Source of the DNA: Oleiharenicola sp.
Lineage (GTDB): Bacteria > Verrucomicrobiota > Verrucomicrobiia > Opitutales > Opitutaceae
Assembly (NCBI GenBank): GCA_025363455.1
Contig: JANYDW010000061.1
Coordinates: 62,001-126,000, forward strand
Length of the DNA stretch: 64,000 nucleotides
Direction of reading: 5' to 3'
Position 1 is the first letter of the stretch. Every line of letters starts with the position of its first letter. Position numbers and translations under genes: made by a program. This document shows positions 11,249-54,908 of the stretch, piece after piece. The notes beneath the pieces were generated by a model. It did no database searches. It was not told where the DNA came from and saw nothing but the letters and a program-made list of their open reading frames with translations.

Positions 11249-11283
11249 TAGTGTAGGCTTTACACCCCACTAACGGTAGTGTG
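11249..11283. promoter_or_regulatory. Candidate operator between xre and mod
   Basis: Two perfect inverted repeats sit back to back: GTGTA-GGCTT-TACAC at 11251-11265 and CACTA-ACGG-TAGTG at 11268-11281. The unit TAGTG occurs in three places counting both strands. The position between divergent xre and mod genes suits an XRE operator. Binding is inferred. Confidence 0.5.
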
Positions 11284-11299
11284 CGTTGTCAGGGCGTCG

Positions 11300-13309: not shown

Positions 13310-13311
13310 CC

Positions 13312-25256: not shown

Positions 25257-25357
25257 CACACCCCGCCCTGCCGGGCACCCCTCTTGCTAGAGGGGAATTT
25301 CGTTGGCGCGGGATTGGGTCCCCTCTGGAGAGGGGTGGCGCGGAGCGACGGGGTGGG
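25257..25357. repeat. Palindromic ~100-bp repeat, CACACCCCG type (copy 1)
   Basis: Starts CACACCCCGCCCTGCCGGGC, contains ACCCCTCTTGCTAGAGGGGA and TCCCCTCTGGAGAGGGGT, and ends GACGGGGTGGG. The outer and inner arms are complementary. It sits between xylB and the GH115 gene. Further copies are at 30698-30800 and 39718-39820. The rest of the 25120-25516 gap shows nothing I can support. Confidence 0.85.
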
Positions 25358-25528
25358 TAAGACTGATCCACGAGACTGAATGGGTCGCGGGGCAATTTTC
25401 CCGCCGGGTGCAGGCTTGTCATCACTCGAATGCAGTCCGCTGGGGCGAAAACATACTATCGTTAGACTGAGGCACCAAAGATTTCGACTCACCTTGCCCG
25501 GCCGCGGGCGGTAGCTATGTATTACCCC

Positions 25529-30697: not shown

Positions 30698-30800
30698 ACA
30701 CACCCCGGCGCTATGCGCCACCCCTCTTGATAGAGGGGAGCCAATGCCGCCAGCCGGAATCCCCTCTGGGAAGAGGGGTGCCCGACAGGGCGGGGTGTGT
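30698..30800. repeat. Palindromic ~100-bp repeat, CACACCCCG type (copy 2)
   Basis: Starts ACACACCCCGGCGCTATGCG, contains ACCCCTCTTGATAGAGGGGA and TCCCCTCTGGGAAGAGGGGT, and ends GGGCGGGGTGTGT. It lies between the CE15 gene and the LacI regulator gene. Confidence 0.88.
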
Positions 30801-30860
30801 GGGACACTTAGCGGAGTAGTCCGCGGTTCGCCGCTTCTGGCTCGCGGTTGCTTGAGCCGT

Positions 30861-30875
30861 GCTCAACCGTTGAGC
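30861..30875. promoter_or_regulatory. Candidate LacI-family operator before the regulator gene
   Basis: The 15-bp palindrome GCTCAAC-C-GTTGAGC ends 2 bp before the regulator ATG. Its 11-bp core TCAACnGTTGA recurs upstream of uxuA at 31909-31919, which suggests autoregulation plus control of uxuA. Confidence 0.6.
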
Positions 30876-30877
30876 GC

Positions 30878-31903
30878 ATGAATGTGCGTTACATCGCGAA
30901 GCTGGCCGGCGTGTCCGCCTCGGCGGTCTCACTGGCCTTGCGCGACAGTCCGCGCATTTCGGCCAAGACCAAGGCGCGCGTGCGCAAGCTCGCGCACGAG
31001 ACGGGTTATACGCCGGATGCGAACATCGTGCACCTGATGCGGCACCTACGGAAACCGCGCGCCGTCCGGCAGCAGGCGTGCTTCGGGGTGATCTCATTCT
31101 ACGACAGCCTGCGGCCGTGGGAAAGATCGCGCCATCTCACCAAGATCCACGAGGGCATGCAGCAGCGCGCGGGCGAACTCGGCTACCGGCTCGAGCCGCT
31201 TTGGCTGACCGCCCCCGGCATGACCTACCGCCGGTTTGGGGACATCCTGGCGGCGCGAGGCATCGAAGGCCTGTTGTGCTTCGGCAGCCCGGATTTCAAT
31301 CAGGAGTTTCCTGGCGAACTTGACGGCCATGCCGTGGTCACCGTTGGTCTAAGCATCCGCACGCCGCTGCACCGCGTGACCAGCCATTTCTACAACAACA
31401 CGCTGCAGGCGCTCAACCGGGTTCACGCGCTGGGCTACCGTCGGCCCGGGCTGGTGCTGGGCATGCACGAGGATACTCGCAGCGCCTCGGCCCACGCCTC
31501 GGCCTACCTCGGCTGGTGCGAGCACGAACTCGGCAGCCAGGGGGCGCGGCCGATCCTGCGTCTGCGCGAAGTCGAGGAACCGGCCCTGACCGGGTGGCTG
31601 GTGAAGAACCGGCCCGACGTGGTCGTTTTCGTCCACCTGCCCGAAATGATCCCCCGCTTCCGGGCCATTTTGAAGCGCCTGCAGATCAGCATTCCGAAGA
31701 GCCTTGGCGTGGTGGTACTCAGCCATGAGGTAGAGGGCACCGGCTTCGCCGGTCTGCGGCAAAACCAGCTGTTGATGGGGTCGTGGGCCGTCGAGTTACT
31801 AGCGGCACGCATCGCCAACCACGACTTTGGCATCCCGGTCAATCCACGCACGGAAATGGTCGAGAGCGAATGGGTTAACGGGGATTCCTTGCGTAAGGGG
31901 TAA
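30878..31903 (+). CDS. LacI-family transcriptional regulator
   Basis: About 341 residues from the ATG at 30878. The N-terminal HTH is MNVRYIAKLAGVSASAVSLA, with the hinge region RVRKLAHETGYTPDAN. The remainder is the periplasmic-binding-protein-like sensor domain (VISFYDSLRPWER, GIEGLLCFGSP, ALGYRRPGLVLG, RTEMVESEW). It lies between the GH115-CE15 pair and uxuA, so the likely effector is a product of glucuronoxylan breakdown, for example an aldobiouronate, glucuronate or methyl-glucuronate. A palindrome overlaps its start region and a matching core precedes uxuA. It resembles the regulator at 58558-59670 in layout and sensor-domain phrases (ELGYRLEPLWL versus ELGYKLEHFWL), so the two are paralogues. 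Confidence 0.9.
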   Translation: MNVRYIAKLAGVSASAVSLALRDSPRISAKTKARVRKLAHETGYTPDANIVHLMRHLRKPRAVRQQACFGVISFYDSLRPWERSRHLTKIHEGMQQRAGELGYRLEPLWLTAPGMTYRRFGDILAARGIEGLLCFGSPDFNQEFPGELDGHAVVTVGLSIRTPLHRVTSHFYNNTLQALNRVHALGYRRPGLVLGMHEDTRSASAHASAYLGWCEHELGSQGARPILRLREVEEPALTGWLVKNRPDVVVFVHLPEMIPRFRAILKRLQISIPKSLGVVVLSHEVEGTGFAGLRQNQLLMGSWAVELLAARIANHDFGIPVNPRTEMVESEWVNGDSLRKG

Positions 31904-31974: not shown

Positions 31975-33057
31975 ATGAACCTAGGTCTCGGTCTTTACCG
32001 CCACATGCTTACCCGCGAGAATTTCCAATTCGCGCGGCAGGCCGGGGCTACTCACGTGGTGGCGCACCTCGTGGATTACTTCAAGGGCGGCACTCACGCG
32101 GGTCCGGACGATCAGCCCACCGGCACAGACTGGGGCTGGGGTTTGGCGGGCGACCCGGACCGGCTTTGGACGCAGGAAGAGCTCACCGAGCTGCGCCGCA
32201 ACGTTGAGGCCGCCGGGCTCAAGCTGGAGGCCATCGAGAATTTTGATCCGGCGCACTGGGGCGACATCCTCCTGGATGGTCCCAGGCGGGCGCGGCACAT
32301 CGAGAACGTGAAGACGATCATCCGCCGGCTGGGGCAGGCGGGCATCCCGATCATGGGCTACAACTTCTCCATCGCCGGTGTCGCCGGCCGCACCAAGGGC
32401 AACTACGCCCGGGGTGACGCGCCTTCAGTGGGGATGGAAGGACCGTACGATTTGCCGATGCCCAACGGCCTCGTCTGGAACATGGTGGTCGATCCCACCG
32501 CGCCATTGCGCGAATCCGGCACGATCCCGTCGGCCACGCACGAACAGCTGTGGTCACGGTTGCAGCGTTTTCTCGACGATGTTCTCCCGGTGGCGGAAGA
32601 AGCGGGAGTGCGCCTCGCGCTGCACCCGGACGACCCACCCATGCCGACGATCCGCGGCCAGCCGAGGCTCGTGTACCAACCGTCGCTCTACCAGAAGGTC
32701 ATCGACCTCAATCCGAGTCTGGCCAACCAGTTTGAATTCTGCGTCGGCTCCCTGGCCGAGATGACGGAGGGAAATATCTACGACGTCGTGGATCGATATT
32801 CCCGGCAACAACGCCTCGGGTACGTTCACCTGCGCAATGTCCGGGACAAGGTGCCGCACTACAAGGAGACCTTCATCGACGACGGCGAGGTCGATGTCCT
32901 GCGCGTCCTTGGCATCCTCAAGCGCAACGGATTCAAAGGCGTCATCATCCCCGATCACGCCCCGCAGATGAGCTGCGCCGCTCCGTGGCATGCCGGCATG
33001 GCTTACGCGCTGGGGTTCATGAAGGCGGGGATCATGAGCCTGGAGGGACAGGGATGA
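31975..33057 (+). CDS. uxuA: Mannonate dehydratase
   Basis: 360 residues, TIM-barrel UxuA family. It dehydrates D-mannonate to 2-keto-3-deoxygluconate in glucuronate catabolism. Typical blocks are ARQAGATHVVAHLVDY, GLKLEAIENFDPAHWGDILL, IPIMGYNFSIAGVAGR, GVRLALHPDDPPMP, FEFCVGSLAEM, YVHLRNVRDKVPHYKETFID and VIIPDHAPQM; the H, C and D metal ligands are in place. It is the first gene after the LacI regulator and is followed by the corrinoid methyl-transfer genes on the same strand. uxaC and uxuB are not recognised in the window; the SDR at 43328-44110 might act as the fructuronate reductase. Confidence 0.93.
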   Translation: MNLGLGLYRHMLTRENFQFARQAGATHVVAHLVDYFKGGTHAGPDDQPTGTDWGWGLAGDPDRLWTQEELTELRRNVEAAGLKLEAIENFDPAHWGDILLDGPRRARHIENVKTIIRRLGQAGIPIMGYNFSIAGVAGRTKGNYARGDAPSVGMEGPYDLPMPNGLVWNMVVDPTAPLRESGTIPSATHEQLWSRLQRFLDDVLPVAEEAGVRLALHPDDPPMPTIRGQPRLVYQPSLYQKVIDLNPSLANQFEFCVGSLAEMTEGNIYDVVDRYSRQQRLGYVHLRNVRDKVPHYKETFIDDGEVDVLRVLGILKRNGFKGVIIPDHAPQMSCAAPWHAGMAYALGFMKAGIMSLEGQG

Positions 33058-33080
33058 GGCCGGGGATGGCAGGCCGGGCT

Positions 33081-33162
33081 GTAGGGCGGGATCTCCGAAT
33101 CCCGCCTGCGTCAAATCGTGTCGCCACAACGTTCGTGGCGGGGTTCGGAGACCCCGCCCTAC
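33081..33162. repeat. Palindromic repeat GTAGGGCGGGATC...CCGCCCTAC
   Basis: Outer arms GTAGGGCGGG and CCCCGCCCTAC are complementary, with hairpin GGCGGGATTCGGAGATCCCGCC-like inner pieces. It fills the space between uxuA and the RACo-like gene. Confidence 0.85.
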
Positions 33163-33172
33163 AGACGAGCTG

Positions 33173-34822
33173 ATGAGCGTCCAACTTCATTTCAACTCAG
33201 TCGTCACTGACGCGGCGCCGGGACTTTCTTTGTTCACCCAAGCCGACAAGCTCGGCATCCCCGTGCCCACCTCGTGCAACAAGCAAGGCAAGTGCAAGGA
33301 ATGCGTCGTCGAGGTAGCGGAGGGAATGGCGTGCCTGTCCAAACCCGGTCCGGAGGAGCAGCACTTGAAGGGCAGCTTCCGGCTGTCGTGCTGCACGCGG
33401 GTAACGGCGGAGCAGGGGACCGTGCGCTGCCACACCATGCGGCGGGGTACGATGAAGATCGAGAAGCACGCTTTCGAACTGCCGACCGGCCCGCGCACGT
33501 GGCAACTCGACCCCGCCGTCACCCGCGATGGCGAGCGAATTTTGCTCGAAGGTGTCGAGATTGATCGTGGCACGGGCCCGCTCCACGGCCTCGCCATCGA
33601 CCTCGGCACGACGACTGTCGTCATCCGCCTGCTGAACCTCGAGTCCGGGGAGGTCATCGCCGACTCCTCGTTTGAGAATCCCCAGCGTTTCGGCGGCTCC
33701 GATGTGATGGCGCGCATTCAGTACGACACGGAGGACCGCACCAAGACGCTCCAACGCACACTCGTCGGTTATCTGAGCCGCGCGATCACGGAGTTTCCCG
33801 TCGACCCACGTTCGATCTATGAGGTCATCATCGCGGGCAACTCGACGATGCGAGACCTGTTTTTTAAGCTGTCCGTCTACTCGATCGGCCAGAGCCCCTA
33901 CCAGTCGGTCACCGAGCTGGAAATGGCCGGAGGCCAGCGCACGACCACGACATTGTCCGACACCGCCCGCCGGCTCGGCCTGCCGATCCACCCGAAGGCC
34001 CGGATACTCGGCCTGCCGATCATCAGCGGTCATGTCGGCGCGGACGCGGCCGCCTGCATGCTCGCGATCGACATCGCCAACGAGGAGCGCGTCGTTGCCG
34101 TCATGGACATCGGCACCAACACCGAGCTCATCATTGGCAACAAGCACAAGGTGCTGGCCGCTTCGTGTCCCGCCGGCCCGGCCTTTGAAGGCGGCCAGAT
34201 TACTTGCGGCATGCCCGGGCTGCCCGGCGCGATCGAGAAAGTGGCTATTCAGGACGACGGCCGGGTGGACACGACCGTCATCGGCGACGTCCCGCCAGAG
34301 GGTCTCTGCGGCTCGGGCCTCGTGGACCTGCTCAGCGAACTTCTCCGGACCGGCCGCATGAACGCATTGGGCCGCTTCGAGGAAGCCGGGCAGGATTTTG
34401 TCGTGGCCACCGGCGGCGACCGCCCGGTCATTTTCAACGAGAGTGATGTCAACGCCCTGGCGCAGGCCAAAGGCGCCAACGTGGCCGGCCTGCAGATCGC
34501 CTTCGCGGAATACGGCATCGATTACCCGCAGCTCGACGTGTTCTACCTCGCCGGCGGTTTCGGCCGGCACCTCAACCTCGAATCGTCCAAGCGGATCGGC
34601 CTGATCCCGAATCTTGCCGCCGACCGCATCGTGCAGGTGGGGAATGCCTCGGTGGAGGGCGCCTGCATCGCGCTGCTCTCGTGCACGAAGCGCGCCGAGC
34701 TCGAGGCGCTCGTCAAGCGCGTGACGCACTGCCGGCTCGAGACGCATCCGGGCTTTTTCGACTTCTTCGTCGAGGGCTGCCAGTTTGCGCCCGTCGGCGG
34801 CACCGCCGTTTCCGGAACCTGA
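33173..34822 (+). CDS. RACo-like reductive activator of corrinoid protein (2Fe-2S ferredoxin plus ASKHA ATPase domain)
   Basis: 549 residues. The N-terminal ferredoxin-like domain has CNKQGKCKECVVEV and a later SCCTR, the cysteine set of a plant-type [2Fe-2S] cluster. The large C-terminal part is the DUF4445/ASKHA ATPase: LAIDLGTTTVVIRLLNLESG, IIAGNSTMRDLFF, AVMDIGTNTELIIGN, GGQITCGMPGLPGAI, GLCGSGLVDLLSELL and FYLAGGFGRHLN. RACo proteins use ATP and an electron donor to re-reduce inactive Co(II) corrinoid to Co(I) in methyltransferase systems. It opens the methyl-transfer gene set; the MetH-activation-like gene follows 5 bp later. No membrane segment is present. Confidence 0.93.
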   Translation: MSVQLHFNSVVTDAAPGLSLFTQADKLGIPVPTSCNKQGKCKECVVEVAEGMACLSKPGPEEQHLKGSFRLSCCTRVTAEQGTVRCHTMRRGTMKIEKHAFELPTGPRTWQLDPAVTRDGERILLEGVEIDRGTGPLHGLAIDLGTTTVVIRLLNLESGEVIADSSFENPQRFGGSDVMARIQYDTEDRTKTLQRTLVGYLSRAITEFPVDPRSIYEVIIAGNSTMRDLFFKLSVYSIGQSPYQSVTELEMAGGQRTTTTLSDTARRLGLPIHPKARILGLPIISGHVGADAAACMLAIDIANEERVVAVMDIGTNTELIIGNKHKVLAASCPAGPAFEGGQITCGMPGLPGAIEKVAIQDDGRVDTTVIGDVPPEGLCGSGLVDLLSELLRTGRMNALGRFEEAGQDFVVATGGDRPVIFNESDVNALAQAKGANVAGLQIAFAEYGIDYPQLDVFYLAGGFGRHLNLESSKRIGLIPNLAADRIVQVGNASVEGACIALLSCTKRAELEALVKRVTHCRLETHPGFFDFFVEGCQFAPVGGTAVSGT

Positions 34823-34827
34823 CCGCC

Positions 34828-36108
34828 ATGGAAACCCACGACAGCCACCCCGAATATGCCGTGCCGGAGGCCGAATACCTTCGGCTGCTCGGTTATCCTC
34901 CGGGTCATGAGCCGGGCGACCGGGTGCGCGAGTTGATGCGGTGGGCCCGCGACTGGTATGCGTGCCACGGCCGCCCCTGGGTTTATCTGCGCGAGGCGGT
35001 CCTGCAGAACGATCCCGCCACCCTGCGCCTCGACGGCGTGGTCTTCAACTCCCTCCGGCTGCAGGAACATTTCCGCCAGCACGACGTGCGGAGCGCCATG
35101 CTCGTGGCGGTCAGCGCCGGCCGGGAGTGCGAGGAGCACGCCCGGCAGCTCTGGGCCGAGGGCAAGCCCGATGAGTATTTTTTCCTGGAGATGTTCGGGT
35201 CCGCCGTGGTCGAGGATCTGGTGGCACGGACGAGCGGCCGCATCTGTGACCTGGCCGCGCCTCAGGGCCTGATGGCCGTGCCGCACTACAGCCCGGGATA
35301 TTCGGGCTGGGACGTGGCGGAGCAGGGCCGGCTGTTCGAACTGATCGCCCGGCGGATGAGCCGGCCTTTTCCCGCTCCGCTGGAGGTGCTCGGTAGCGGC
35401 ATGCTGCGGCCGAAGAAATCACTGCTGGCGGTGTTCGGCCTGGCGGGGTCGACCGGCCGAACACCCGCCGAATCGGCCGCCACACCGTGCGAAAACTGCG
35501 CCTTCTCGCCCTGCAGCTATCGCCGCGCGGCGTATCGACACGCAACCGGTTCGGTCTCCCTGCCATCCGTAGCCTCGGCGAAGGACGGTGATCGAACTTC
35601 GGGCCAGCCACAGTCCGGCCTTGCTGCGCGTTACACGGTCAACGCCCGCGCGCTGCGCAAGTGGGCGGCCGAACGCGTCCGCCTCGCCTGGCGCGACGAC
35701 GGTACCGTCGAGGCGGTCTTCCGCTTCGATGGCACGACCTGTTCCAACATGGGCCAGCCGCTGGCCTTCGATTACAGCGTATGGTTGAGCGCCCCCGAGC
35801 AAGGCTTCCTGATCATGGAAAGCAGCTGCGCCCCGGCACCCGGGGACGAGGGCTACCAGTCCACTTGCGCTTACCTGAGCGATGCCGACGGACTCATGCA
35901 GTCCCTCGCCCGCGAGAAACCTCTGCTGGGGCGCCCGCTCGAGGAGGTGCTCAACTGGGCGCGCGCCACCGCGCCGTCTGGCTGCCACTGCACCGCCGAC
36001 AGCCGGATCCACAAATGGGGCCTCGCCCTCGAGGTCATCCACTACGCCCTCACTCAGGTCCGCACCCCCCCAACCTGTTTCCTAACCACGACCCTGCTGC
36101 CTTCATGA
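34828..36108 (+). CDS. MetH activation-domain-like protein
   Basis: 426 residues. The middle resembles stand-alone proteins with a vitamin-B12-dependent methionine-synthase activation domain: FFLEMFGSAVVEDLVAR, YSPGYSGWDVAEQGRLFELI, LEVLGSGMLRPKKSLLAVFG, then a cysteine motif PCENCAFSPCSYRR. This AdoMet-binding fold re-methylates inactivated corrinoid in MetH. The C-terminal part (VEAVFRFDGTTCSNMGQPLA, SSCAPAPGDEGYQSTCAYL, GCHCTADSRIHKWGLALEVI) is cysteine rich and not familiar to me. Residues about 240-260 (LPSVASAKDGDRTSG) are encoded by a CCGTAGCCTCGGCGAAGGA-like repeat and may be an insertion. It overlaps the next gene by 4 bp. Confidence 0.72.
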   Translation: METHDSHPEYAVPEAEYLRLLGYPPGHEPGDRVRELMRWARDWYACHGRPWVYLREAVLQNDPATLRLDGVVFNSLRLQEHFRQHDVRSAMLVAVSAGRECEEHARQLWAEGKPDEYFFLEMFGSAVVEDLVARTSGRICDLAAPQGLMAVPHYSPGYSGWDVAEQGRLFELIARRMSRPFPAPLEVLGSGMLRPKKSLLAVFGLAGSTGRTPAESAATPCENCAFSPCSYRRAAYRHATGSVSLPSVASAKDGDRTSGQPQSGLAARYTVNARALRKWAAERVRLAWRDDGTVEAVFRFDGTTCSNMGQPLAFDYSVWLSAPEQGFLIMESSCAPAPGDEGYQSTCAYLSDADGLMQSLAREKPLLGRPLEEVLNWARATAPSGCHCTADSRIHKWGLALEVIHYALTQVRTPPTCFLTTTLLPS

Positions 36109-36434
36109 TCAAACTCTGCGACATTAATCCGTCCGCCACCGCTAAACTGCCGCCGGCCTTCACCGACAAGTCCGGGATCGGGGTCCACTACGTCGACGCC
36201 TTCATCAAGCCGATGAACGCCGCGCTGCCCGATGGCACGCGCGTCGCCTGCAAGCGCCGCGGCCTCAAGGTCACCCTCAAGGTCGGGCTGACCAAGAAGG
36301 GTGACGGCCTGATGCGCCGTCTGCAGGTCAGCAGGGACCCGGTGATCATGTTGCAGGCCTGCCTCGCGGAGGCCGCCACGGCGGCGGGCGTGCAGCTCCA
36401 GGTCACCGAGCAGGAAATCCTGATCGCCCCGTGA
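36105..36434 (+). CDS. Small hypothetical protein of the corrinoid cluster
   Basis: 109 residues, MIKLCDINPSATAKLPPAFT. I do not recognise the family. It is an alpha/beta protein with a basic middle (RVACKRRGLKVTLKVGLTKK) and no signal peptide or membrane segment. The start ATG overlaps the stop of the MetH-activation-like gene (ATGA at 36105-36108), so the two are translationally coupled and probably work together. A binding or chaperone role for the corrinoid protein is possible but unproven. Confidence 0.75.
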   Translation: MIKLCDINPSATAKLPPAFTDKSGIGVHYVDAFIKPMNAALPDGTRVACKRRGLKVTLKVGLTKKGDGLMRRLQVSRDPVIMLQACLAEAATAAGVQLQVTEQEILIAP

Positions 36435-36445
36435 GTAGGTCACTG

Positions 36446-36473
36446 CTCTCAACTCTCAGCGCTCAACCCTCAA
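36446..36473. repeat. Heptamer repeat tract
   Basis: Four 7-bp units: CTCTCAA, CTCTCAG, CGCTCAA, CCCTCAA. It belongs to the same CARCnCT-like class as the in-gene tracts at 18979-19013 and flanking 40248-40293. Confidence 0.75.
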
Positions 36474-36486
36474 CTACCGCCTTACT

Positions 36487-37551
36487 ATGACACCCGCCCA
36501 ATGGGACATCTTCAAACGCGCCGCGCGCATGGAAAAACTCAGCAAGGTGCCGATGGCCATGATCATCGACAGCCCCTGGATCCCCGGCTACGTCGGCGTG
36601 AAGCACATGGATTTCTTCGTCGACCCACAGGTGTGGTTCGAGTCTCACCGGAAGATCCACGAGGAGTTCCCCGACATCATCTTTGTTCCCGGCTACTGGC
36701 TGGAATACGGCATGGCGGCCGAGCCGTCGGTCCTCGGTTCCAAGATCAAGTTTTGGCAGGACAACACGCCGAGCGAGTACCACATGCTCTTCAATATCGA
36801 GGACGTGGACAAGCTCCCCGAGTATGAGGTCGAGAACGACGCGTTCATGGCGCTCACGCTCCACCGGCTGCGCATGCAGCGCCAGCAGGTGCTCGACACC
36901 GGCGAGATCTTCACGATGGCCACGTCGCGCGGCCCGATGTGTACCGCCGGCTTCGCTCGCAACACCAGCGACTTCATGATCGACCTGGTGGAGAAACCCG
37001 AGTGGGCGCACAAGCTGCTCGACCTTTGCACGCGGCTCATCATCGACTGGCTCAAGGCGCAGGTAAAGGCCATGGGCCCGACCGTCGAGGGCATCTTCCT
37101 CCTCGACGACATCGTCGGCTTTGTGAACGAGGACCATTATCAGGAGTTCTGCCATCCGTACCTGAAGCGCATCTGCGATGCCTTCCCCAAGGACTGGGTT
37201 AAGCTCTACCACAACGACGCTTCCATCGAGGCCTGCCTCGAGCATCTGCCCGACTGCGGTTTCAACATGCTCAACTGGGGCAAGCAGACCGACATTGCCG
37301 ACGTGAAGGCCCGCGTGGGCGACCGCATTTGCCTCATGGGCAACGTCAATCCCCTGGAGGTCGGCGTGCGCGGCACGGTCGCCGAGGTTCGCGAAGCCAC
37401 CCTCGATGTGCTCGAGAAGGGCGCCAACAATGGCAAGGGTCTGGTCCTCTCCGTCGGCGGCGGCACCAGCCCCGGCATGCCGCGCGAGAACATCGTCGCG
37501 ATGAAGGCTGCCCTGGACGAATTCAACAAGGCGCACTTCGGCGCGAGCTAA
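36487..37551 (+). CDS. Uroporphyrinogen-decarboxylase-family corrinoid methyltransferase
   Basis: 354 residues of the UroD/MtaA/CmuA-type TIM-barrel family. Visible blocks are MAMIIDSPWIPGYVG, WFESHRKIHEEFPDIIFVPG, SRGPMCTAGFARNTSDF, EGIFLLDDIVGFVNEDHYQE, WVKLYHNDASIEACLEHLPD, GFNMLNWGKQTDIADVK, CLMGNVNPLEVGVRGT and LSVGGGTSPGMPRENI; H and C residues suitable for zinc are present. In such operons this enzyme moves a methyl group between the substrate (or acceptor) and the cognate corrinoid protein, whose gene is next. A true heme-pathway HemE is excluded by the sequence and context. The substrate is unknown; 4-O-methyl-glucuronate is the context-based candidate. Confidence 0.88.
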   Translation: MTPAQWDIFKRAARMEKLSKVPMAMIIDSPWIPGYVGVKHMDFFVDPQVWFESHRKIHEEFPDIIFVPGYWLEYGMAAEPSVLGSKIKFWQDNTPSEYHMLFNIEDVDKLPEYEVENDAFMALTLHRLRMQRQQVLDTGEIFTMATSRGPMCTAGFARNTSDFMIDLVEKPEWAHKLLDLCTRLIIDWLKAQVKAMGPTVEGIFLLDDIVGFVNEDHYQEFCHPYLKRICDAFPKDWVKLYHNDASIEACLEHLPDCGFNMLNWGKQTDIADVKARVGDRICLMGNVNPLEVGVRGTVAEVREATLDVLEKGANNGKGLVLSVGGGTSPGMPRENIVAMKAALDEFNKAHFGAS

Positions 37552-37563
37552 GAGCATTCCTTC

Positions 37564-37664
37564 CCACTATCATTCTCATTCTCCTACTCGTTCTCTTTCT
37601 CCTGCCTTGGCGAAGCTGATCCAGACGAGAGAAGGAGAATGATTACGAGAACGAGAACGATTTA
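37564..37664. repeat. Hexamer-type inverted repeat
   Basis: Degenerate 6-bp units (CATTCT, CATTCT, CCTACT, CGTTCT) on one side face GAGAATGATTACGAGAACGA on the other, so the two arms can form a long hairpin between the methyltransferase and corrinoid-protein genes. Confidence 0.75.
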
Positions 37665-37677
37665 ATCCCCCATTCCC

Positions 37678-38646
37678 ATGCCAGACTACGCCTTAATGAA
37701 CCAGTGTATCTACGAGGGCAAAGCCAAGGAGGTCGAGCAGCTGACCCAGGCCGCCCTCGCCGAGGGCCGCACCGCCCAGGAAATTCTCTCCGACGGCCTC
37801 ATCGCCGGCATGAGCGTCGTCGGCGAAGACTTCAAACACAACATCCTCTACGTCCCCGAGGTCCTCATTGCCGCGCGCGCGATGAAGGCCGGCATGGGCG
37901 TGCTCAAGCCCCTGCTCAGCGCCAAGGGCGCGGTGGACAGTTCCGCCGGCCGGCTGCTCATGGGCACCGTGCGCGGCGACCTGCATGACATCGGCAAGAA
38001 CCTCGTCTGCATGATGGCCGAGGGCGCCGGCTTCACCGTGAAGGACATCGGCGTGGACCAGAGCGTCGAGAAATTCACGGCCGCCGCCGACGAATTCAAG
38101 CCCGACATCATCGGCATGAGCGCGCTGCTCACCACCACGATGACCTACATGAAGACCGTCATCGACGGCTTCGACCGGCCGGGCTACGACCACATCAAGA
38201 TGGCGATCGGCGGCGCCCCCATCAGCCAGATGTTCGCCGACGAGATCGGGGCCGACGGCTACGGCTCCGACGCCTCGAACGCGGTGGACCTGTTTCTCTT
38301 CCTCGTGGGCAAGGGTCCGGCCCCCAAGGCGACGCTGCGCGCCGGCGTGAAGCCCACGGCCAGTGCCGTCGCCGCGGCGCGCCCGGCCAATAACATCGTG
38401 CACTACCAGATCCTCTACTGGCGCGACCTGCCCTCCGCCGTGAAGGTGTGGGATGATTTCGGCGAGGTGAAAATGGACCTGCCGGCGAAGTTTGCCGACC
38501 GCATCGACGCGACCGCCCAGAAGCTCGGTCTCACTTCCGGCGACGCCTACACCGCCGAGCTCAAGTGGGGCGAGGAGCTGGAGTGCACCGGCGTGCCGGA
38601 GGATGTCGCCAAGGCCCTCGTCAAAGAGATGGAGGGTGTGAATTAA
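37678..38646 (+). CDS. Corrinoid (B12-binding) methyl-carrier protein with an extra C-terminal domain
   Basis: 322 residues. Residues about 1-90 are the helical cap (MNQCIYEGKAKEVEQLTQAA, GMSVVGEDFKHNILYVPEVL) and about 90-215 the Rossmann B12-binding domain with GDLHDIGKN at 100-108, giving the D-x-H-x-x-G cobalt-ligating histidine near 103. Ordinary MtxC proteins end near 215. Here an alanine-rich linker leads to a C-terminal domain from about 240 (QILYWRDLPSAVKVWDDFG, ELKWGEELECTGVPEDVAKA) that resembles the PF13769 'virulence factor' family. The methyl group travels on this protein between the UroD-type enzyme and the pterin-binding methyltransferase encoded on either side. Confidence 0.92.
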   Translation: MPDYALMNQCIYEGKAKEVEQLTQAALAEGRTAQEILSDGLIAGMSVVGEDFKHNILYVPEVLIAARAMKAGMGVLKPLLSAKGAVDSSAGRLLMGTVRGDLHDIGKNLVCMMAEGAGFTVKDIGVDQSVEKFTAAADEFKPDIIGMSALLTTTMTYMKTVIDGFDRPGYDHIKMAIGGAPISQMFADEIGADGYGSDASNAVDLFLFLVGKGPAPKATLRAGVKPTASAVAAARPANNIVHYQILYWRDLPSAVKVWDDFGEVKMDLPAKFADRIDATAQKLGLTSGDAYTAELKWGEELECTGVPEDVAKALVKEMEGVN

Positions 38647-38661
38647 ACCCAGCTTTCACCG

Positions 38662-38755
38662 CCGTCATCCTGCTCCCGCGGTCGTGGGAGCAGGATCCAC
38701 GATTAACCAACCCGGCAACACGTTCATGGATTCTTCGCTTCGCTCAGAATGACGG
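38662..38755. repeat. CCGTCATCC...GAATGACGG inverted repeat (copy 1)
   Basis: Outer arms CCGTCATCCTG and CTCAGAATGACGG are complementary, with inner TGGATTCTTCGCTTCGCTC and a CTCCCGCGGTCGTGGGAG hairpin. Related copies are at 41237-41323 and 43188-43274. Confidence 0.8.
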
Positions 38756-38776
38756 TAAGAGAGTGAAATCCATCCC

Positions 38777-39703
38777 ATGCGCCCGCTCAATATCATCGGC
38801 GAGTTGATCAACAACTCCTACGCCCGCGCCCGCGCCGCCTTTAACGACCGCAATCCCGCCGCCTACGCCCGTCTTGCCAAGCTCCAGGCCGACCTAGGCG
38901 TCAGCTACCTCACACTCAACCTCGACGGCACCGCCCGCATCTCGGTGCGGATGGAGGAAATGCTGGCGCTGCTACCGGATGTCATCCGCGCCATCCAGGC
39001 GGTGACGGACCGGCCCATCAGCTTCGACAATCCATCCGTCGACTATCACAAGGTCGCGCTCAAGCACTACGACCGCAGCAAGAGCGGCCCACCGATCCTC
39101 AACTCGATCGCGGCGTCCCGCACCCAGCTCGACGAGATGATCGCCCTCGTGAAGGACTACGACACCCGGGTCGTCGTGATGGCCTCGGAGCACTTCGTGC
39201 CCGGCGGCACCGGCCAGTGCATGAACCCGCTGGACGCCTATGCTGCCGCGAAGCATTTCGTCGACCTGCTGGTCACGCGGGCCGGCCGTAAGCTCGACGA
39301 CATCATCATCGACCCGGGTCTCGCGCCCGTCGGTGCCGACACCTACGGTCTCGTCAACATCGGCCTCGATGCGATGCGGATGATCAGCACCGATCCGCAC
39401 CTGCAAGGTGTCCATCTGGTCGTGGGGCTATCCAATTTCGCCTGGGGCACGCCGAAGGGCGTCCGCGAGCAGCTGGAATGCGCCTACCTTACGCTCGGCC
39501 AGGAGGTCGGTTTGAATTTCGCCCTCGCGAACCCCGAGAAGGCGCCGGCCCCGCTGCCCGCCGGTCACCCGATGGTGGCCCGGCTCCGTGAGGCGCTCGC
39601 CGCCGGCCGGCCGCTCGAAGGCGAGTCGCAGGAAACGGCCGGCTACCGTCAGGCCGAGGCTATCATGGCGATCTGCAACGATGCGGTGCCGGCCGATTCA
39701 TGA
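38777..39703 (+). CDS. Pterin-binding (DHPS-like) methyltetrahydrofolate:corrinoid methyltransferase
   Basis: 308 residues of the dihydropteroate-synthase-like fold used by AcsE/MeTr and MetH pterin domains. It starts MRPLNIIGELINNSYARARAAF. Blocks supporting the call are LGVSYLTLNLDG, RPISFDNPSVDYHKVALKHY, ILNSIAASRTQLDEMIAL, DDIIIDPGLAPVGADTYG and LVVGLSNFAWGTPKGVREQLE (asparagine-containing pterin-binding segment). The reaction would pass the methyl group from the corrinoid protein to tetrahydrofolate, or back. It is not a folate-biosynthesis FolP: the catalytic phosphate-binding loop is different and it sits in a corrinoid operon. Confidence 0.88.
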   Translation: MRPLNIIGELINNSYARARAAFNDRNPAAYARLAKLQADLGVSYLTLNLDGTARISVRMEEMLALLPDVIRAIQAVTDRPISFDNPSVDYHKVALKHYDRSKSGPPILNSIAASRTQLDEMIALVKDYDTRVVVMASEHFVPGGTGQCMNPLDAYAAAKHFVDLLVTRAGRKLDDIIIDPGLAPVGADTYGLVNIGLDAMRMISTDPHLQGVHLVVGLSNFAWGTPKGVREQLECAYLTLGQEVGLNFALANPEKAPAPLPAGHPMVARLREALAAGRPLEGESQETAGYRQAEAIMAICNDAVPADS

Positions 39704-39717
39704 TATGATTGTCCCCG

Positions 39718-39820
39718 ACACATCCCGGCGCTGCGCGCCACCCCTCTTCCTAGAGTGGACTCCAAGCAACGTCGCAGAGGTCCCCTCTATTAAGAGGGGT
39801 GCCCGAGAGGGCGGGGTGTG
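39718..39820. repeat. Palindromic ~100-bp repeat, CACACCCCG type (copy 3)
   Basis: Starts ACACATCCCGGCGCTGCGCG, contains ACCCCTCTTCCTAGAGTGGA and TCCCCTCTATTAAGAGGGGT, and ends GGGCGGGGTGTG just before the amidohydrolase ATG. Confidence 0.88.
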
Positions 39821-39823
39821 TTC

Positions 39824-41188
39824 ATGATTTCCATTCCGCCAACCACTCGCGACCACCCGGTCTGGCTCCACGTCGGGACCCTGCTCGACGGCACCAGCAC
39901 CAGTCCGGTGCATGACGCCCACGTCGTGTACGATGCCGCTGGCATCCGGTTTGTCGGCCGCAACGGGCAGACGCCTCCGGCCGCATCCATGCGCCCGGGC
40001 CAGACTGCACCCGATGTGGTCGCGCCTGACGCCACGCTTCTGCCGGGCCTGATCGAGGCCCACGCGCATCTCTTCCTGGAAGGAGGCGAGCTCGATCTCG
40101 ACAAGCGCGCCGCCTACCTGAAGCAGGATGCGGCCGGCCTGCTCTCCTCGGCGATGCCGCGTCTGGAAAAGCTGGTGCGACTCGGCGTGATCGCCGTGCG
40201 CGATGCGGGCGACAAGGACGGCGTGGGGCTGGCTCTCAGCTCTTGCGCCCGAGAATCGCGATCCCGCGGCCGCGGGAGGCGCGAGTTCTCGGGACGCATC
40301 CCGGGCGGGGAGCACGCCGCAACGGGACAGCCCTCAGCTCTCAGCCTGGATCCCATGCCCTATCTCGACAGCCCCGGTGCGGCCATCCACCACCGGGGGC
40401 GTTACGGCAGCTTCATGGGTGGGGCGTTGGAGGATTATGCCTCGCCGGCCGATTGTGTGGCCGCACGAATCGCCGCCGGCGCCGACCGCATCAAGCTCAT
40501 CCCGACCGGCATCATCAATTTCAAGCTGGGCGCCGTCACCACTGAACCGCAGATGACCGTGGAAGAGCTGCGGCAGCTCGTCGCCGCGGCGAACGCGACC
40601 GGCCGGCAGACCTTTGCCCACGCGTCCGGCGACGCCGGCATCGAGCGGGTGATCGAGAGCGGGGTGGATTCGGTCGAGCACGGGTTCTTCGTTCGCGATG
40701 ACCAGCTCGCCCGCATGCGCGACCGCCGCATTGCGTGGGTGCCGACCTTCGCGCCTGTCCAGTTGCAGGTGGACGAGGCCGTCCGCTACAAATGGGACGC
40801 CGCGATCGTGGGCAATCTGCAGCGCATCCTCGACCAGCACGCGGCCAGCCTGGTGAAGGCGCATGCGCTGGGCGTGCTCATCGTCGCGGGCAGCGATGCT
40901 GGTTCTTGTGGCGTCGCGCACGGCATGGGCTTTCTCCGGGAGCTGGAATTGATGCAACGCGCCGGGTTGCCCCCGCTGGCGGTAATCAATGCTGCGACAG
41001 GCGTCAGCGCCGGCCGGCTCGGATTTGGGGAGAACTTCGGTCGGATCGAGCCGGGGGCGCTTAGCCGCTTTATCCTGACGAAGCATCCGCCCCATGAGAC
41101 TGTGGCCCATCTCCGCCGGGCAAAGACGGTCGTGTTTGACGGGCGAGTGTATGAGTCGGATGACACACCTGACGTGACCGGACTTTGA
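39824..41188 (+). CDS. Metal-dependent amidohydrolase (imidazolonepropionase-like)
   Basis: 454 residues from the ATG at 39824 (MISIPPTTRDHPVWLHVG). The first metal site is LLPGLIEAHAHLFLEGGE (H-x-H). Further ligands are H in TFAHASGDAGIERVI, H in GVDSVEHGFFV and D in VAGSDAGSCGVAHGMGFL; the strand with KLIPTGIINF carries a lysine candidate. The substrate is unknown. Its place within the methyl-transfer genes could mean that the natural substrate has an amide or lactone, so it does not fit a simple sugar-ether model. Residues about 136-175 come from a repeat insertion (heptamers around a palindrome) and would form a loop. There is no signal peptide. Confidence 0.85.
   Translation: MISIPPTTRDHPVWLHVGTLLDGTSTSPVHDAHVVYDAAGIRFVGRNGQTPPAASMRPGQTAPDVVAPDATLLPGLIEAHAHLFLEGGELDLDKRAAYLKQDAAGLLSSAMPRLEKLVRLGVIAVRDAGDKDGVGLALSSCARESRSRGRGRREFSGRIPGGEHAATGQPSALSLDPMPYLDSPGAAIHHRGRYGSFMGGALEDYASPADCVAARIAAGADRIKLIPTGIINFKLGAVTTEPQMTVEELRQLVAAANATGRQTFAHASGDAGIERVIESGVDSVEHGFFVRDDQLARMRDRRIAWVPTFAPVQLQVDEAVRYKWDAAIVGNLQRILDQHAASLVKAHALGVLIVAGSDAGSCGVAHGMGFLRELELMQRAGLPPLAVINAATGVSAGRLGFGENFGRIEPGALSRFILTKHPPHETVAHLRRAKTVVFDGRVYESDDTPDVTGL
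40248..40293. repeat. In-gene palindrome flanked by heptamers (amidohydrolase)
   Basis: CCCGAGAATCGCG...CGCGAGTTCTCGGG forms an imperfect inverted repeat centred on GCGGCCGC. Heptamers CAGCTCT lie on both sides (about 40236-40244 and 40331-40346). The whole block is read in frame as protein. Confidence 0.8.
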
Positions 41189-41236
41189 ACAAGGCATGAG
41201 ACACAAATTGCACGACTCAATCACGATCCTTCCCAG

Positions 41237-41323
41237 CCGTCATCCTGAGCGCAGCGAAGGATCCAAGAGGAAGGACCGACATACGCCGACTCCGTGGATC
41301 CTCCGCTGCGCTCAGGATGACGG
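41237..41323. repeat. CCGTCATCCTGAGCGCAGCG inverted repeat (copy 2)
   Basis: Arms CCGTCATCCTGAGCGCAGCG and CGCTGCGCTCAGGATGACGG are perfectly complementary, with GGATCCA/TGGATCC next inside. Located between the amidohydrolase and MetF-like genes. Confidence 0.9.
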
Positions 41324-41395
41324 GAACGTGGGTTGGCTTCGTACTCGTGCCATTTCGTGGGATTCGTGTCTCTCCACCTTTATCGCCATATCTCC

Positions 41396-42097
41396 ATGGG
41401 CATGTCTCTCGAAATAACCACCCGCAACGAGGTTCCGGCCGCCGTCGCCTACGACGAGATTTTCGTCACCTGGCTGCCGACGGAGGGCAAAGACACGGTC
41501 ATTGCGAAAACCGCCGGGCTCCACGCCCAGGGCCTGAAGCCGGTGCCGCATCTCGTGGCGTTCAAGATCAAGGACGTGGCCGAGGCGCACAGCATCGCCG
41601 CGGCCGTTGCGCCCTACACGAAGAAGGTTTTTCTCATCCGCGGAGGCGGCCAGCAGGAGGGCGTCTTTAACACGGTCGACGAACTCGTGGCGAGCGGGGC
41701 GTTCCGGAACTTCGAGATCGGCGTCGGCGGCTTCCCGGACGGCAACCGCCCGGTCAGCTACGAGGAAGGGATCGCGATTTTGCGTCGCAAGGCGGCCTAT
41801 GCCAGCTTTGTGGTCACGCAATGGTCGTTAAACGAACCGGCGCTCGCGCGCTTCCTCGAGGATTCGCCCCTGCCGGTTTACCTAGGGGTGCCCAATCGCT
41901 GCTCGCTCAAGCAGCTCGCGCGGTTCGCCGCCATTTGCGGCGTCGAGAATGCCGTCAAGGGCGTGCTGTCGAATCCGCGCAACCTCGCCCGCTTCATGCT
42001 GGGCTTTGATCCGGGTTACATCGTCAAGGCCTTCGCGACGCACCCGCGACTGGCCAAGATTCATGTCTACGCCTTCGGCAACTTCGACCCGCTGTGA
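41396..42097 (+). CDS. Short methylenetetrahydrofolate-reductase-like (MetF-like) protein
   Basis: About 233 residues; starts at 41396 or 41402 are equally possible (MGMSLEITTRNE). It reads as a shortened MTHFR TIM barrel: DEIFVTWLPTEGKDTVIAKT, GLKPVPHLVAFKIKD, VFLIRGGGQQEGVFNT, FEIGVGGFPDGNRPVSYEEG, YASFVVTQWSLNE, VYLGVPNRCSLKQLARFAAI. These correspond to MetF blocks (the 'iGvAGyPExH' and 'FiTQ' segments), but the protein is about 60 residues shorter than MetF. In a methyl-transfer operon it would oxidise methyl-tetrahydrofolate to methylene-tetrahydrofolate. Whether the flavin site is complete cannot be judged by eye. Confidence 0.7.
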   Translation: MGMSLEITTRNEVPAAVAYDEIFVTWLPTEGKDTVIAKTAGLHAQGLKPVPHLVAFKIKDVAEAHSIAAAVAPYTKKVFLIRGGGQQEGVFNTVDELVASGAFRNFEIGVGGFPDGNRPVSYEEGIAILRRKAAYASFVVTQWSLNEPALARFLEDSPLPVYLGVPNRCSLKQLARFAAICGVENAVKGVLSNPRNLARFMLGFDPGYIVKAFATHPRLAKIHVYAFGNFDPL

Positions 42098-42111
42098 AGA
42101 ATCTTTTTCAA

Positions 42112-42192
42112 CAGCTAATTGACGCTAATTGACGCTAATCATTCCGGGTCCAATCTCGTTTCATTAATTAGCGCGAATTAGCGTCAATTAGC
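42112..42192. repeat. Inverted repeat of GCTAATTGAC-like units
   Basis: CTAATTGACGCTAATTGACG on the left faces CGAATTAGCGTCAATTAGCG on the right. Each arm itself repeats with a period of about 11 bp. A related CGCGAATTGACGCG piece lies near 21385. Confidence 0.8.
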
Positions 42193-42210
42193 GGTTAACC
42201 TCTGTCCTCC

Positions 42211-43122
42211 ATGGCTCATCTACCTCTCCTCGAAGCCCTCTCGACCCGCCGCCTCGTGTGCGACGGGGCCATGGGCACGCAACTCATGCTCGCCGGGCTC
42301 GAATCGGGTTCGTGCGGCGAGGCCTGGAATCTCGCGCATCCCGACCGCGTGCTCGCCATCCAGCGCCGCTACGCCGAGGCCGGGGCGGACTGCATCATCA
42401 CCAACACCTTTGGCGGGAGCCGCATCATGCTGCGCCGGCATGGACATGAAAGGGAACTGGCGGAGATCAATGCCGCCGCGGTGCGCATCACGCGTGAAGC
42501 CTTCGGCGGCCGGGCCGGCTATGTGCTCGGGGACATCGGTCCGCTGGGAGCGTTGCTGGAACCCTACGGCGACCTGACCGAGGCCGAGGCGCTCTCTGCA
42601 CTCGAGGAGCAAGCCGTTGCGCTCGTCCAGACCGGGGCCGACGCTCTTATCATTGAGACGCAAACGGGATTGGAGGAACTGGGCTTGGCGATCGACGCCG
42701 CCAAGGCCGCGAAAGCCCCGTGCATCATCGCCTCGCTGGCCTACGACTTGTCAATGGATGGTACTTTCTACAAGACGATGATGGGCATTTCGCCCGAGCA
42801 GGCGGCAGAGTTTGTGGCCGAACGCGGGGCGCACATCGTTGCGCTCAACTGCGGCACCGGCATGGACATGAAGGGCGCGGCCATGGTCGGCCGCCTCTAC
42901 CGGAACACCTGCGCGCTGCCCGTCATGGTGCAGCCGAACGCCGGCCTGCCCGTCCTCGAAAAACTCAAGGCGGTCTACAAGCAGCTTCCCGCTGACATGG
43001 CCAAGGACGTCCCGTCGGTGCTCGAGGTCGGCGTCGGCATCATCGGCTCCTGCTGTGGCAGCACCCCGGACCATACGAAGGCGATCCGTGAGGTGGTGGA
43101 TTCATTCAACCAGACGAAGTAG
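42211..43122 (+). CDS. Homocysteine S-methyltransferase-family protein
   Basis: 303 residues of the pfam S-methyl_trans family (BHMT/MetH N-terminal type). It starts with LVCDGAMGTQLMLAGLESG, then ADCIITNTFGGSRIML, YVLGDIGPLGALLEPYGDLT, GADALIIETQTGLEELGLAI. The zinc cysteines are in ALNCGTGMDM and GSCCGSTPDH. The family moves methyl groups from methylated substrates, corrinoid or AdoMet to a thiol. In this operon it may be a second methyltransferase using the corrinoid protein or making methionine. It lacks the other MetH domains, which are partly supplied by separate genes nearby (activation-like, corrinoid, pterin-binding). Confidence 0.9.
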   Translation: MAHLPLLEALSTRRLVCDGAMGTQLMLAGLESGSCGEAWNLAHPDRVLAIQRRYAEAGADCIITNTFGGSRIMLRRHGHERELAEINAAAVRITREAFGGRAGYVLGDIGPLGALLEPYGDLTEAEALSALEEQAVALVQTGADALIIETQTGLEELGLAIDAAKAAKAPCIIASLAYDLSMDGTFYKTMMGISPEQAAEFVAERGAHIVALNCGTGMDMKGAAMVGRLYRNTCALPVMVQPNAGLPVLEKLKAVYKQLPADMAKDVPSVLEVGVGIIGSCCGSTPDHTKAIREVVDSFNQTK

Positions 43123-43187
43123 ACCCATCCTTTATTAACCACGGATTACACGGATCACACGGATGAACTCAGACAATACCCACACAC

Positions 43188-43274
43188 CCGTCATCCTGAG
43201 CGCAGCGAAGGATCCAAGAACATGGGGCAGGTCTCGACTTCGACTTGGATTCTTCGCTGCGCTCAGAATGACGG
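43188..43274. repeat. CCGTCATCCTGAGCGCAGCG inverted repeat (copy 3)
   Basis: Left arm CCGTCATCCTGAGCGCAGCG faces right arm CGCTGCGCTCAGAATGACGG. Located between the homocysteine-methyltransferase-like gene and the SDR gene. Confidence 0.9.
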
Positions 43275-43327
43275 AACGGGAGTTGTTTGGTTCCTCCGTA
43301 TAATTCGTCGTCACATTTTTTCATTCC

Positions 43328-44110
43328 ATGCCCGCTTCCAAACCCTTGAACTTTCCCGATGCCTTCTCGCTGAAGGGCGAACACGTCCTCATCACCGGTG
43401 GTGGCACCGGCATCGGCCTCGCCGTAGCCCAGGCGATGCACGCCGCCGGCGCCCGCGTCGTCTTGATCGGCCGGCGCGAGGCGGAGCTCGTTGCCGCCGT
43501 ACAGGGACTGGGCGAGCGAGCCTCGTATATTGTGCATGACATCACGCAGTATGACCAGGCCCCGGCACTGATCGAGCGGATCACGAAGGTAAACGGGCCC
43601 ATCACTTGCCTGGTGAACAACGCCGGCAAGCACCTCAAGAAACCCGCCATCGATACCACCCCGGAAGAGCTGCAGCTGGTGATGGGCACGCATATCTTCG
43701 GCGCGCACGCACTCTCCCGCGCGGTCCTGCCGGGCATGATCGAGCGCAAGCACGGCAACATTATCTTCATGGCTTCGATGGCCTCGCTCTTCGGCATCCC
43801 ACTGGTCGTGGCCTACGCCGCGGCCAAGTCGGCCATGATGGGCATGATCCGTACCATGGCCACGGAACTTTCCTCGCACGGCGTGCGCGTGAATGCGATC
43901 GCTCCCGGCTGGATTGACACGGCGATGTCGCGCAAGGCCTTCGAGGGCGATCCGGGCCGTAAGAGCAAGATCGTCAGCCGCACCCCCATGGCCCGCTTGG
44001 GCGAACCCGCCGATGTGGGCTGGGCCGTGGTCTACCTGGCGTCCCCCGCCGCCAAGTTCATTACCGGCTCCATCATGCCCGTCGATGGCGGCGTGAGCAT
44101 GGGGTTCTGA
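43328..44110 (+). CDS. SDR-family oxidoreductase
   Basis: 260 residues of the classical short-chain dehydrogenase family. The NAD(P) motif is LITGGGTGIGLAVA, with LVNNAGKH, the catalytic serine in FMASMASLF, the Y-x-x-x-K in AYAAAKSAMMGM and VNAIAPGWIDTAM. VDGGVSMGF closes the protein as in gluconate 5-dehydrogenase-like enzymes. It is the last gene of the methyl-transfer stretch. A plausible role is fructuronate reduction to mannonate (replacing UxuB) or oxidation of a demethylated sugar acid; the sequence alone cannot decide. Confidence 0.88.
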   Translation: MPASKPLNFPDAFSLKGEHVLITGGGTGIGLAVAQAMHAAGARVVLIGRREAELVAAVQGLGERASYIVHDITQYDQAPALIERITKVNGPITCLVNNAGKHLKKPAIDTTPEELQLVMGTHIFGAHALSRAVLPGMIERKHGNIIFMASMASLFGIPLVVAYAAAKSAMMGMIRTMATELSSHGVRVNAIAPGWIDTAMSRKAFEGDPGRKSKIVSRTPMARLGEPADVGWAVVYLASPAAKFITGSIMPVDGGVSMGF

Positions 44111-49195: not shown

Positions 49196-51382
<2,187 letters not shown>

Positions 51383-51394
51383 GGGGATTAAAAT

Positions 51395-51451
51395 GTAGCA
51401 GCGGCTTTTCGCCGCGATTCGGTGAGTGGTCGCGGCGGAAAGCCGCTCCGA
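51395..51451. repeat. Palindromic repeat GTAGCAGCGGCTTTTCGCCG...
   Basis: AGCGGCTTTTCGCCGCGA faces TCGCGGCGGAAAGCCGCT between the GH67 start and the GH8 end. Same general architecture as the GTAGG family. Confidence 0.8.
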
Positions 51452-51465
51452 CATAAAAAAAAGGA

Positions 51466-54879: not shown

Positions 54880-54908
54880 GGGGGTTGGGGGTGGGGAGGA
54901 AAGGGTAT

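Follow-up and report, generated by a model that had tools for sequence, protein, structure and literature searches.

A putative corrinoid-dependent O-demethylation module for 4-O-methylglucuronate in a glucuronoxylan locus of the Opitutaceae

Our subject is a set of corrinoid methyl-transfer genes inside a glucuronoxylan locus of Oleiharenicola sp. (Opitutaceae, Verrucomicrobiota), found in a window of 64,000 nucleotides, by which we mean the whole stretch analysed (assembly GCA_025363455.1, contig JANYDW010000061.1, positions 62,001 to 126,000). Read along the forward strand, the genes encode a LacI-family regulator, the mannonate dehydratase UxuA, a RACo-type activator, a cysteine-rich protein, a 101-residue protein, a UroD-type methyltransferase, a corrinoid protein, a pterin-binding methyltransferase, an amidohydrolase, a MetF-like protein, a homocysteine methyltransferase and an SDR oxidoreductase, with GH115 and CE15 genes on one side and a GH67 gene on the other. 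Hardwood xylan carries 4-O-methylglucuronic acid as its main acidic side chain, and we consider it probable that this module carries out a corrinoid-dependent O-demethylation dedicated to that side chain of glucuronoxylan. The locus had been described before in an original prediction made without database searches, and its gene list has held up well: a frame check found the genes from uxuA to the SDR gene as open frames on the forward strand at the coordinates they had been given, and profile searches bore out most of the domain labels, including those of the flanking GH115, GH67 and CE15 genes (PF15979, PF07488 and PF22244; Table 1). The MetF-like label has a weak match (TIGR00676, 2.7e-4), and to the list we add the 101-residue protein (36129-36434) and the PF13769 domain at the C-terminus of the corrinoid protein.

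The case for glucuronate begins with linkage. We sampled 252 genomes of the host's family and counted as a carrier any genome whose best UroD match reached at least 600 bits, which gave 38 carriers of 252, the best of the ten other matching genomes scoring 270 bits; one genome (G244) has a second UroD copy at 556 bits, and two (G020 and G022) hold partial copies and stand outside the 38. Of the 35 carriers with UxuA, 23 have it no more than 10 kilobases (kb) away from UroD, where random placement would give 0.24 (this and all other placement statistics and p values given here ignore shared ancestry). The corresponding figures within 25 kb are 15 of 29 for GH115 (0.60 expected), 9 of 28 for GH67 (0.38 expected) and 18 of 32 for either hydrolase (0.98 expected), and linkage to GH115 or GH67 is spread over 11 of the 17 carrier genera, or 13 of 17 once UxuA is added. 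In addition, GH67 is present in 28 of 38 carriers as against 36 of 214 non-carriers (Fisher p 7.9e-12). The co-occurrence search across Opitutaceae that had been proposed for these genes therefore ties UroD to uxuA, GH115 and GH67 far above random placement. When six relatives are set beside the window, the GH115 at the locus falls into two types that are 45-49% alike, and UxuA is 75-90% alike; with two GH115 types beside so well conserved a UxuA, our reading is that the hydrolase may have been exchanged while its presence was kept.

This linkage extends well outside the family. Named genomes were scanned and gave 116 relatives, of which we kept 80 (at least 68% identity in the best segment), with titles of Verrucomicrobia, Ignavibacteria, Bacteroidota, KSB1, Acidobacteria, Gemmatimonadota and Phycisphaerales; two of these carriers, Opitutaceae bacterium EW11 (L058) and Verrucomicrobiae bacterium DG1235 (L075), have records without a MAG label. 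GH67 was searched for in 50 of the 80, hand-chosen and mostly from outside the Opitutaceae; it was found in 38, of which 11 have it within the UroD locus itself (0.14 expected). Sampling 200 genomes of the class around one acidobacterial carrier gave 45 with GH67 and 18 with the UroD clade (E <= 1e-120), and GH67 is present in 11 of the 18 carriers and in 34 of the 182 others (Fisher p 2.3e-4); by hand count, the starts of UroD and GH67 are no more than 10.1 kb apart in 5 of the 11 genomes that have both. For example, UroD directly adjoins GH67 in G517, and in G310 and G468 a row of one gene, an SDR gene and GH67 stands beside UroD, the first gene of the row in G310 encoding an enolase-superfamily dehydratase. 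Homologues lying mostly away from glucuronate genes would have spoken against the original prediction; of 30 full-length loci (those longer than 20.9 kb), 17 hold GH67, GH115 or UxuA and 13 do not, a linkage that is far above chance and not universal.

Table 1. Genes of the methyl-transfer module and its surroundings, with positions in the window
Feature	Coordinates	Strand	Matches
GH115 alpha-glucuronidase, frees (methyl)glucuronate from xylan	25517..28486	+	PF15979 9.7e-147, PF17829
CE15-type glucuronoyl esterase fused to GDSL/SGNH esterase	28483..30657	+	PF22244 9.7e-31, PF13472
LacI-family regulator	30848..31903	+	PF00356 3.2e-11
UxuA mannonate dehydratase, divergent from NCBIfam model	31975..33057	+	PF03786 1.3e-52; under TIGR00695 cut-off
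RACo/RamA-type corrinoid reductive activator, 2Fe-2S domain	33173..34822	+	PF14574, PF17651, PF00111
Conserved cysteine-rich protein	34822..36108	+	matched in 51/80 loci
Conserved 101-residue protein	36129..36434	+	matched in 45/80 loci
UroD-superfamily methyltransferase, proposed substrate:corrinoid methyltransferase (MT1)	36487..37551	+	URO-D PF01208 1.6e-42
Corrinoid protein, D-x-H-x-x-G motif, fused PF13769 domain	37678..38646	+	PF02607, PF02310, PF13769
Pterin-binding methyltransferase (corrinoid <-> tetrahydrofolate)	38777..39703	+	PF00809 2.2e-12; NF005719 below cut-off
Amidohydrolase	39818..41188	+	PF01979
MetF-like protein, proposed methyl-tetrahydrofolate oxidation	41333..42097	+	weak MTHFR match only, TIGR00676 2.7e-4
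Homocysteine S-methyltransferase, proposed main methyl acceptor enzyme	42211..43122	+	PF02574 1.9e-56
SDR oxidoreductase, perhaps fructuronate/mannonate oxidoreductase	43328..44110	+	PF13561 2.9e-59, PF00106
GH67 alpha-glucuronidase	49196..51997	-	PF07488 4.9e-141
MFS_2 sugar transporter and GH52 beta-xylosidase	53383..57002	-	PF13347, PF03512

Corrinoid three-component demethylases of methyl ethers employ a substrate methyltransferase of the UroD or the MttB type, and the one encoded here is of the UroD type. Aligned to MtaA (4ay7), it retains the zinc histidine as His242 and has Asp244 and Gly325 in place of the two cysteines. Across 80 sequences, the residues conserved in at least 97% include His242, Asp244, Arg148, Lys86 and Lys239. 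The His-x-Cys ... Cys arrangement is the zinc site for thiol activation in MtaA, MtbA and Mlp methyltransferases, so that the loss of both cysteines sets the enzyme apart from the MtaA/MtbA and mlp-cluster coenzyme M methyltransferases; with a TIGR01463 score of 96 bits, short of the cut-off of 235, we reject a thiol methyltransferase of this kind. A uroporphyrinogen decarboxylase (HemE) was likewise rejected, since TIGR01464 gives 71.6 bits against a cut-off of 302.95 and the RQAGR stretch of 4wsh, which is important in HemE, is unmatched in the alignment. In a search of PDB sequences the third-best chain, behind two uroporphyrinogen decarboxylases, was the chloromethane:corrinoid methyltransferase CdmB (9rui), a member of the same superfamily with weak similarity (E 4.7e-9, positions 154-344), which holds haloalkanes through a hydrophobic network according to the part of the paper available (PMC13222342). 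CdmB does not appear in the structure-based match list for the UroD model, an absence that excludes nothing. The predicted structure has a mean pLDDT (predicted local distance difference test) of 67.7 and low-confidence loops that adjoin the conserved 242-244 stretch, and with confidence so middling beside these residues we make no argument from the pocket.

The methyltransferase has a consistent partner. The D-x-H-x-x-G motif of the stand-alone corrinoid protein reads DLHDIG directly in the sequence, a homologue (E <= 1e-40) is present in all 38 UroD carriers of the host's family, and by hand count the gene adjoins UroD in 22 of the 38. Corrinoid proteins longer than 300 residues, like the fused form of the window, occur in 14 loci, mostly of Verrucomicrobia, and short ones in 43; many of the short genes have a second, weaker match alongside, which is probably a separate gene for the PF13769 domain. 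The 'virulence factor' name of that family looks misleading beside a corrinoid protein. By profile, the RACo domains and the 2Fe-2S domain make the next component a predicted ATP-dependent reductive activator. Its neighbour, the cysteine-rich protein, looks like a corrinoid activation protein by eye only, and the 'MetH-activation-like' label once attached to it is left unconfirmed, because Pfam at E 10 gave no relevant match (one chance-level Thg1, E 0.14) and PDB sequences at E 1 gave only chance-level myosin matches. The 101-residue protein has no Pfam match at E 10. These two proteins recur with the module across phyla, and neither matches a known family.

We then come to where the methyl group might go, for which the window proteins were matched by tblastn (E 1e-6) to 80 loci found through UroD; the resulting counts are lower bounds, many loci being cut by contig ends. 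The corrinoid protein is matched in 60 loci, RACo in 54, the cysteine-rich protein in 51, and the 101-residue protein and the homocysteine methyltransferase in 45 each (three of the latter at only 37-38% identity), followed by GH67 in 16, UxuA and the SDR in 15 each, the pterin protein and GH115 in 14 each, the amidohydrolase in 9 and the CE15 protein in 6. Of the two acceptor enzymes, 30 of the 60 corrinoid loci hold only the homocysteine enzyme, 3 only the pterin protein, 11 both and 16 neither. The MetF-like protein of the window is matched in none of the 80 loci, and its place is taken by a protein cluster with an MTHFR-DUF5981 fusion as representative, which is present in 14 loci, in 13 of these alongside the pterin gene. 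By these counts of acceptor genes, the module has a core of UroD, corrinoid protein, activator and homocysteine enzyme, and a rarer folate arm made up of the pterin enzyme, MTHFR/MetF and the amidohydrolase. The G003 locus has the core and no folate arm, and G033 and G017 lack both the folate arm and the activator genes in the stretches seen. The original prediction had the methyl group passing to tetrahydrofolate, with the amidohydrolase as the piece that fitted least. A predicted methyl-corrinoid:tetrahydrofolate methyltransferase (PF00809) is indeed encoded in the window, yet its gene is matched in far fewer related loci than that of the homocysteine methyltransferase (14 of 80 versus 45 of 80); the amidohydrolase, for its part, travels with the folate arm, all nine of its loci also holding the pterin gene.

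From gene content, recurrent linkage, fold and motifs we infer the substrate, the order of steps and each reaction of a pathway that would run as follows. GH115 and GH67 would release the sugar acid from xylan, and the UroD-type MT1 would move the methyl group from 4-O-methylglucuronate, or from a downstream ring-opened acid, to the Co(I) of the corrinoid protein, with RACo, perhaps together with the adjacent cysteine-rich protein, re-reducing the cobalt. The S-methyltransferase would hand the methyl group to homocysteine; here and in a minority of relatives it might also pass to tetrahydrofolate through the pterin-binding protein, with oxidation by the MetF-like protein to follow. The demethylated acid would then proceed by way of the SDR and UxuA to 2-keto-3-deoxygluconate. 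UxuA, aligned to 3ban, retains all of the HPDDPP, CVGS, H-RN and PDH motifs, and for the SDR no NCBIfam model reached its cut-off among the 25 matches listed. UxuA works at C2-C3 and should not need a free C4 hydroxyl, which a later aldol cleavage would. What had first been proposed, namely demethylation of 4-O-methylglucuronate feeding the mannonate branch, thus agrees with the linkage to uxuA, GH115 and GH67 across genera and phyla and with the rarity of two aromatic ring-cleavage families, and it is tetrahydrofolate as the acceptor that we would revise.

By analogy, the best mechanistic precedent for such a scheme is the MtgB-C-D-E, MetF2 and RamA system of Ruegeria and Phaeobacter, which combines glycine betaine demethylation with a split methionine synthase and, as far as the part of the paper available goes, likewise has a corrinoid protein, a pterin-binding protein, a homocysteine methyltransferase, a MetF paralogue and a RamA-like activator; in Ruegeria a demethylase and the homocysteine enzyme share one corrinoid protein, and the proposed role of MetF2 is the oxidation of methyl-tetrahydrofolate (PMC12478193). 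The two systems differ in the methyl-donor enzyme, which is UroD-type here and MttB-type there, and in that the host also has a full MetH. A glycine betaine or methylamine demethylase of the MttB superfamily was rejected, there being no PF06253 match among the cluster proteins scanned; those proteins gave no DUF1638 match either.

Several observations pull the other way. Within the family GH67 is absent from 10 of the 38 carriers, GH115 from 9 and both from 6, and in only two of these six does UxuA lie within 10 kb of UroD. Conversely, 36 genomes of the family have GH67 and count as non-carriers of the module, among them G020 with its partial copy. By hand count, 16 of the 38 carriers have no corrinoid gene beside UroD, their homologue being elsewhere only. 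Further afield, some of the 13 long loci without GH67, GH115 and UxuA lie beside unrelated genes, and the enolase-superfamily gene of five acidobacterial loci has weak matches to many families, the best to glucarate dehydratase (148 bits) and another to muconate cycloisomerase (101), all below cut-off. The acidobacterial sample includes its own centre, picked because it is a carrier, and the edge of the family is blurred there: 6 of the 18 members score above 660 bits (four of the six with GH67) and 12 lie at 405-523 bits (7 of the 12 with GH67). Finally, demethylation of an alkyl ether is chemically harder than that of an aryl ether.

One rival reading concerns aromatics. The three-component O-demethylases of the MtvB/OdmB/VdmB type likewise have a UroD-superfamily MT1, a corrinoid protein and an ATP-driven activator (the window also has a pterin-type second methyltransferase, MT2), and in the part of the paper available these known MT1 enzymes use methoxylated aromatics (PMC13222342). 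The module might accordingly act on methoxylated aromatics that the nearby CE15 esterase releases from lignin-carbohydrate esters, and the weak muconate cycloisomerase match, one among others for the acidobacterial enolase-superfamily neighbour, would suit that idea. We think it unlikely. The module sits with hexuronate and xylan genes and its more frequent acceptor is a homocysteine methyltransferase, in both of which it departs from the MtvB/OdmB/VdmB type; CE15, matched in 6 of 80 loci, is a less frequent companion than UxuA, GH67 or GH115. It also departs from that type in that two aromatic ring-cleavage families are rare in carriers: the intradiol dioxygenase PF00775 is present in 5 of the 38 and LigB in 3, and the host genome has neither at E 1e-10. 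The 20 profiled neighbour proteins included no clear aromatic-pathway enzyme. These tests are blind to export of the demethylated phenol, other dioxygenases and anaerobic ring reduction.

A closer relative of our preferred explanation is that the module has several substrates, 4-O-methylglucuronate being just one of them, and acts on another O-methylated sugar or methylated sugar acid from plant or algal glycans, and this too we regard as quite improbable. The six carriers without GH67 and GH115 are what recommends it, particularly G089, G112, G181 and G182, where UxuA is not within 10 kb either, as are those loci that have genes for GH28, a fucosidase or a xylonate dehydratase as neighbours; ten profiled neighbours from loci without the glucuronate genes included GH28, a fucosidase, an acid-sugar dehydratase and an aldose epimerase, along with an acetate kinase, a peptidase and a restriction protein. 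In G188 and G192, however, UxuA still stands beside UroD in the absence of both hydrolases, which indicates a hexuronate substrate.

Least of all do we favour a split methionine synthase, B12-dependent and like that of roseobacters, which happens to be placed in a xylan locus and has UroD as an accessory, a very unlikely reading even though profiles find separate homocysteine, corrinoid and pterin genes with a RamA-like activator and the set resembles those of Phaeobacter and Ruegeria in the parts of the papers available (PMC5764234, PMC12478193), because the host has a complete one-piece MetH (1344 residues on contig C42, with PF02574, PF00809, PF02607, PF02310 and the activation domain PF02965) and so no missing MetH to replace, the pterin gene for methyl-tetrahydrofolate supply is unmatched in 66 of the 80 loci (found through UroD, many cut at contig ends), and a pure methionine synthase is not expected to track GH67 and UxuA. 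That the module is the sole methionine synthase was set aside outright, given that the full MetH of the host includes an activation domain. Taking all of this together, the module is most likely a sugar-acid O-demethylase that is strongly associated with glucuronate genes.

The surroundings fit a xylan locus. A GH8 gene lies downstream together with GH67, the MFS_2 transporter and GH52, on the opposite strand, and an FGGY kinase gene and a xylose-isomerase-like barrel gene, situated further out, are consistent with this picture. A LacI-family regulator gene also precedes uxuA in the relatives G003, G016 and G023. A scan for CG-centred palindromes over 19 intergenic stretches gave one near-palindrome, before the homocysteine methyltransferase gene, compared with 83 hits window-wide, so we name no operator. 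Between uxuA and the RACo gene, at 33081-33162, is an inverted repeat (GTAGGGCGGG...), perhaps a terminator or a mobile repeat. Paired palindromes of the form CCCCTCT...AGAGGGG make up an interspersed hairpin repeat in the window (25278-25295, 30721-30778 and 39741-39799), with 7 matches where 0.03 are expected (both strands, at most 3 mismatches). Elsewhere in the window, a DNA methylase gene and a ResIII-type gene (11279-15951) resemble a type III restriction-modification pair, and upstream of the window on the same contig, genes for TIR-domain proteins, one of which also has TPR repeats, stand close to type I restriction genes (L138 433-3702; L139 7214-9499), a stretch that is likely to be a defence region.

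In the open-access PMC literature, as far as its texts were available and with the proviso that subscription papers or preprints may hold one, we found no pathway for corrinoid demethylation of methylated sugars or of 4-O-methylglucuronate, and within the same literature no account of the fate of the 4-O-methyl group after alpha-glucuronidase release; a paper on Brockarchaeota, which are xylan users, concerns methanol and trimethylamine in the part available (PMC8065059). The broader idea, to which we would give an even chance, is that of a B12-dependent sugar-ether demethylase in several phyla of plant-polymer degraders, which would pass the 4-O-methyl group of hemicellulose straight to homocysteine and so feed the methionine and S-adenosylmethionine pool without folate, methanol or formaldehyde, the folate arm of some lineages oxidising the surplus. 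If our account of the module is true, it would serve as a genetic marker for methyl removal from released 4-O-methylglucuronate, and sugar ethers would take their place beside aromatic ethers, amines and halides as substrates of corrinoid demethylation. Hemicellulose breakdown would then be linked with one-carbon and methionine pools, in bacteria that are known here chiefly through environmental genomes, with the plant methyl group on xylan side chains being reused as the sugar acid is consumed.

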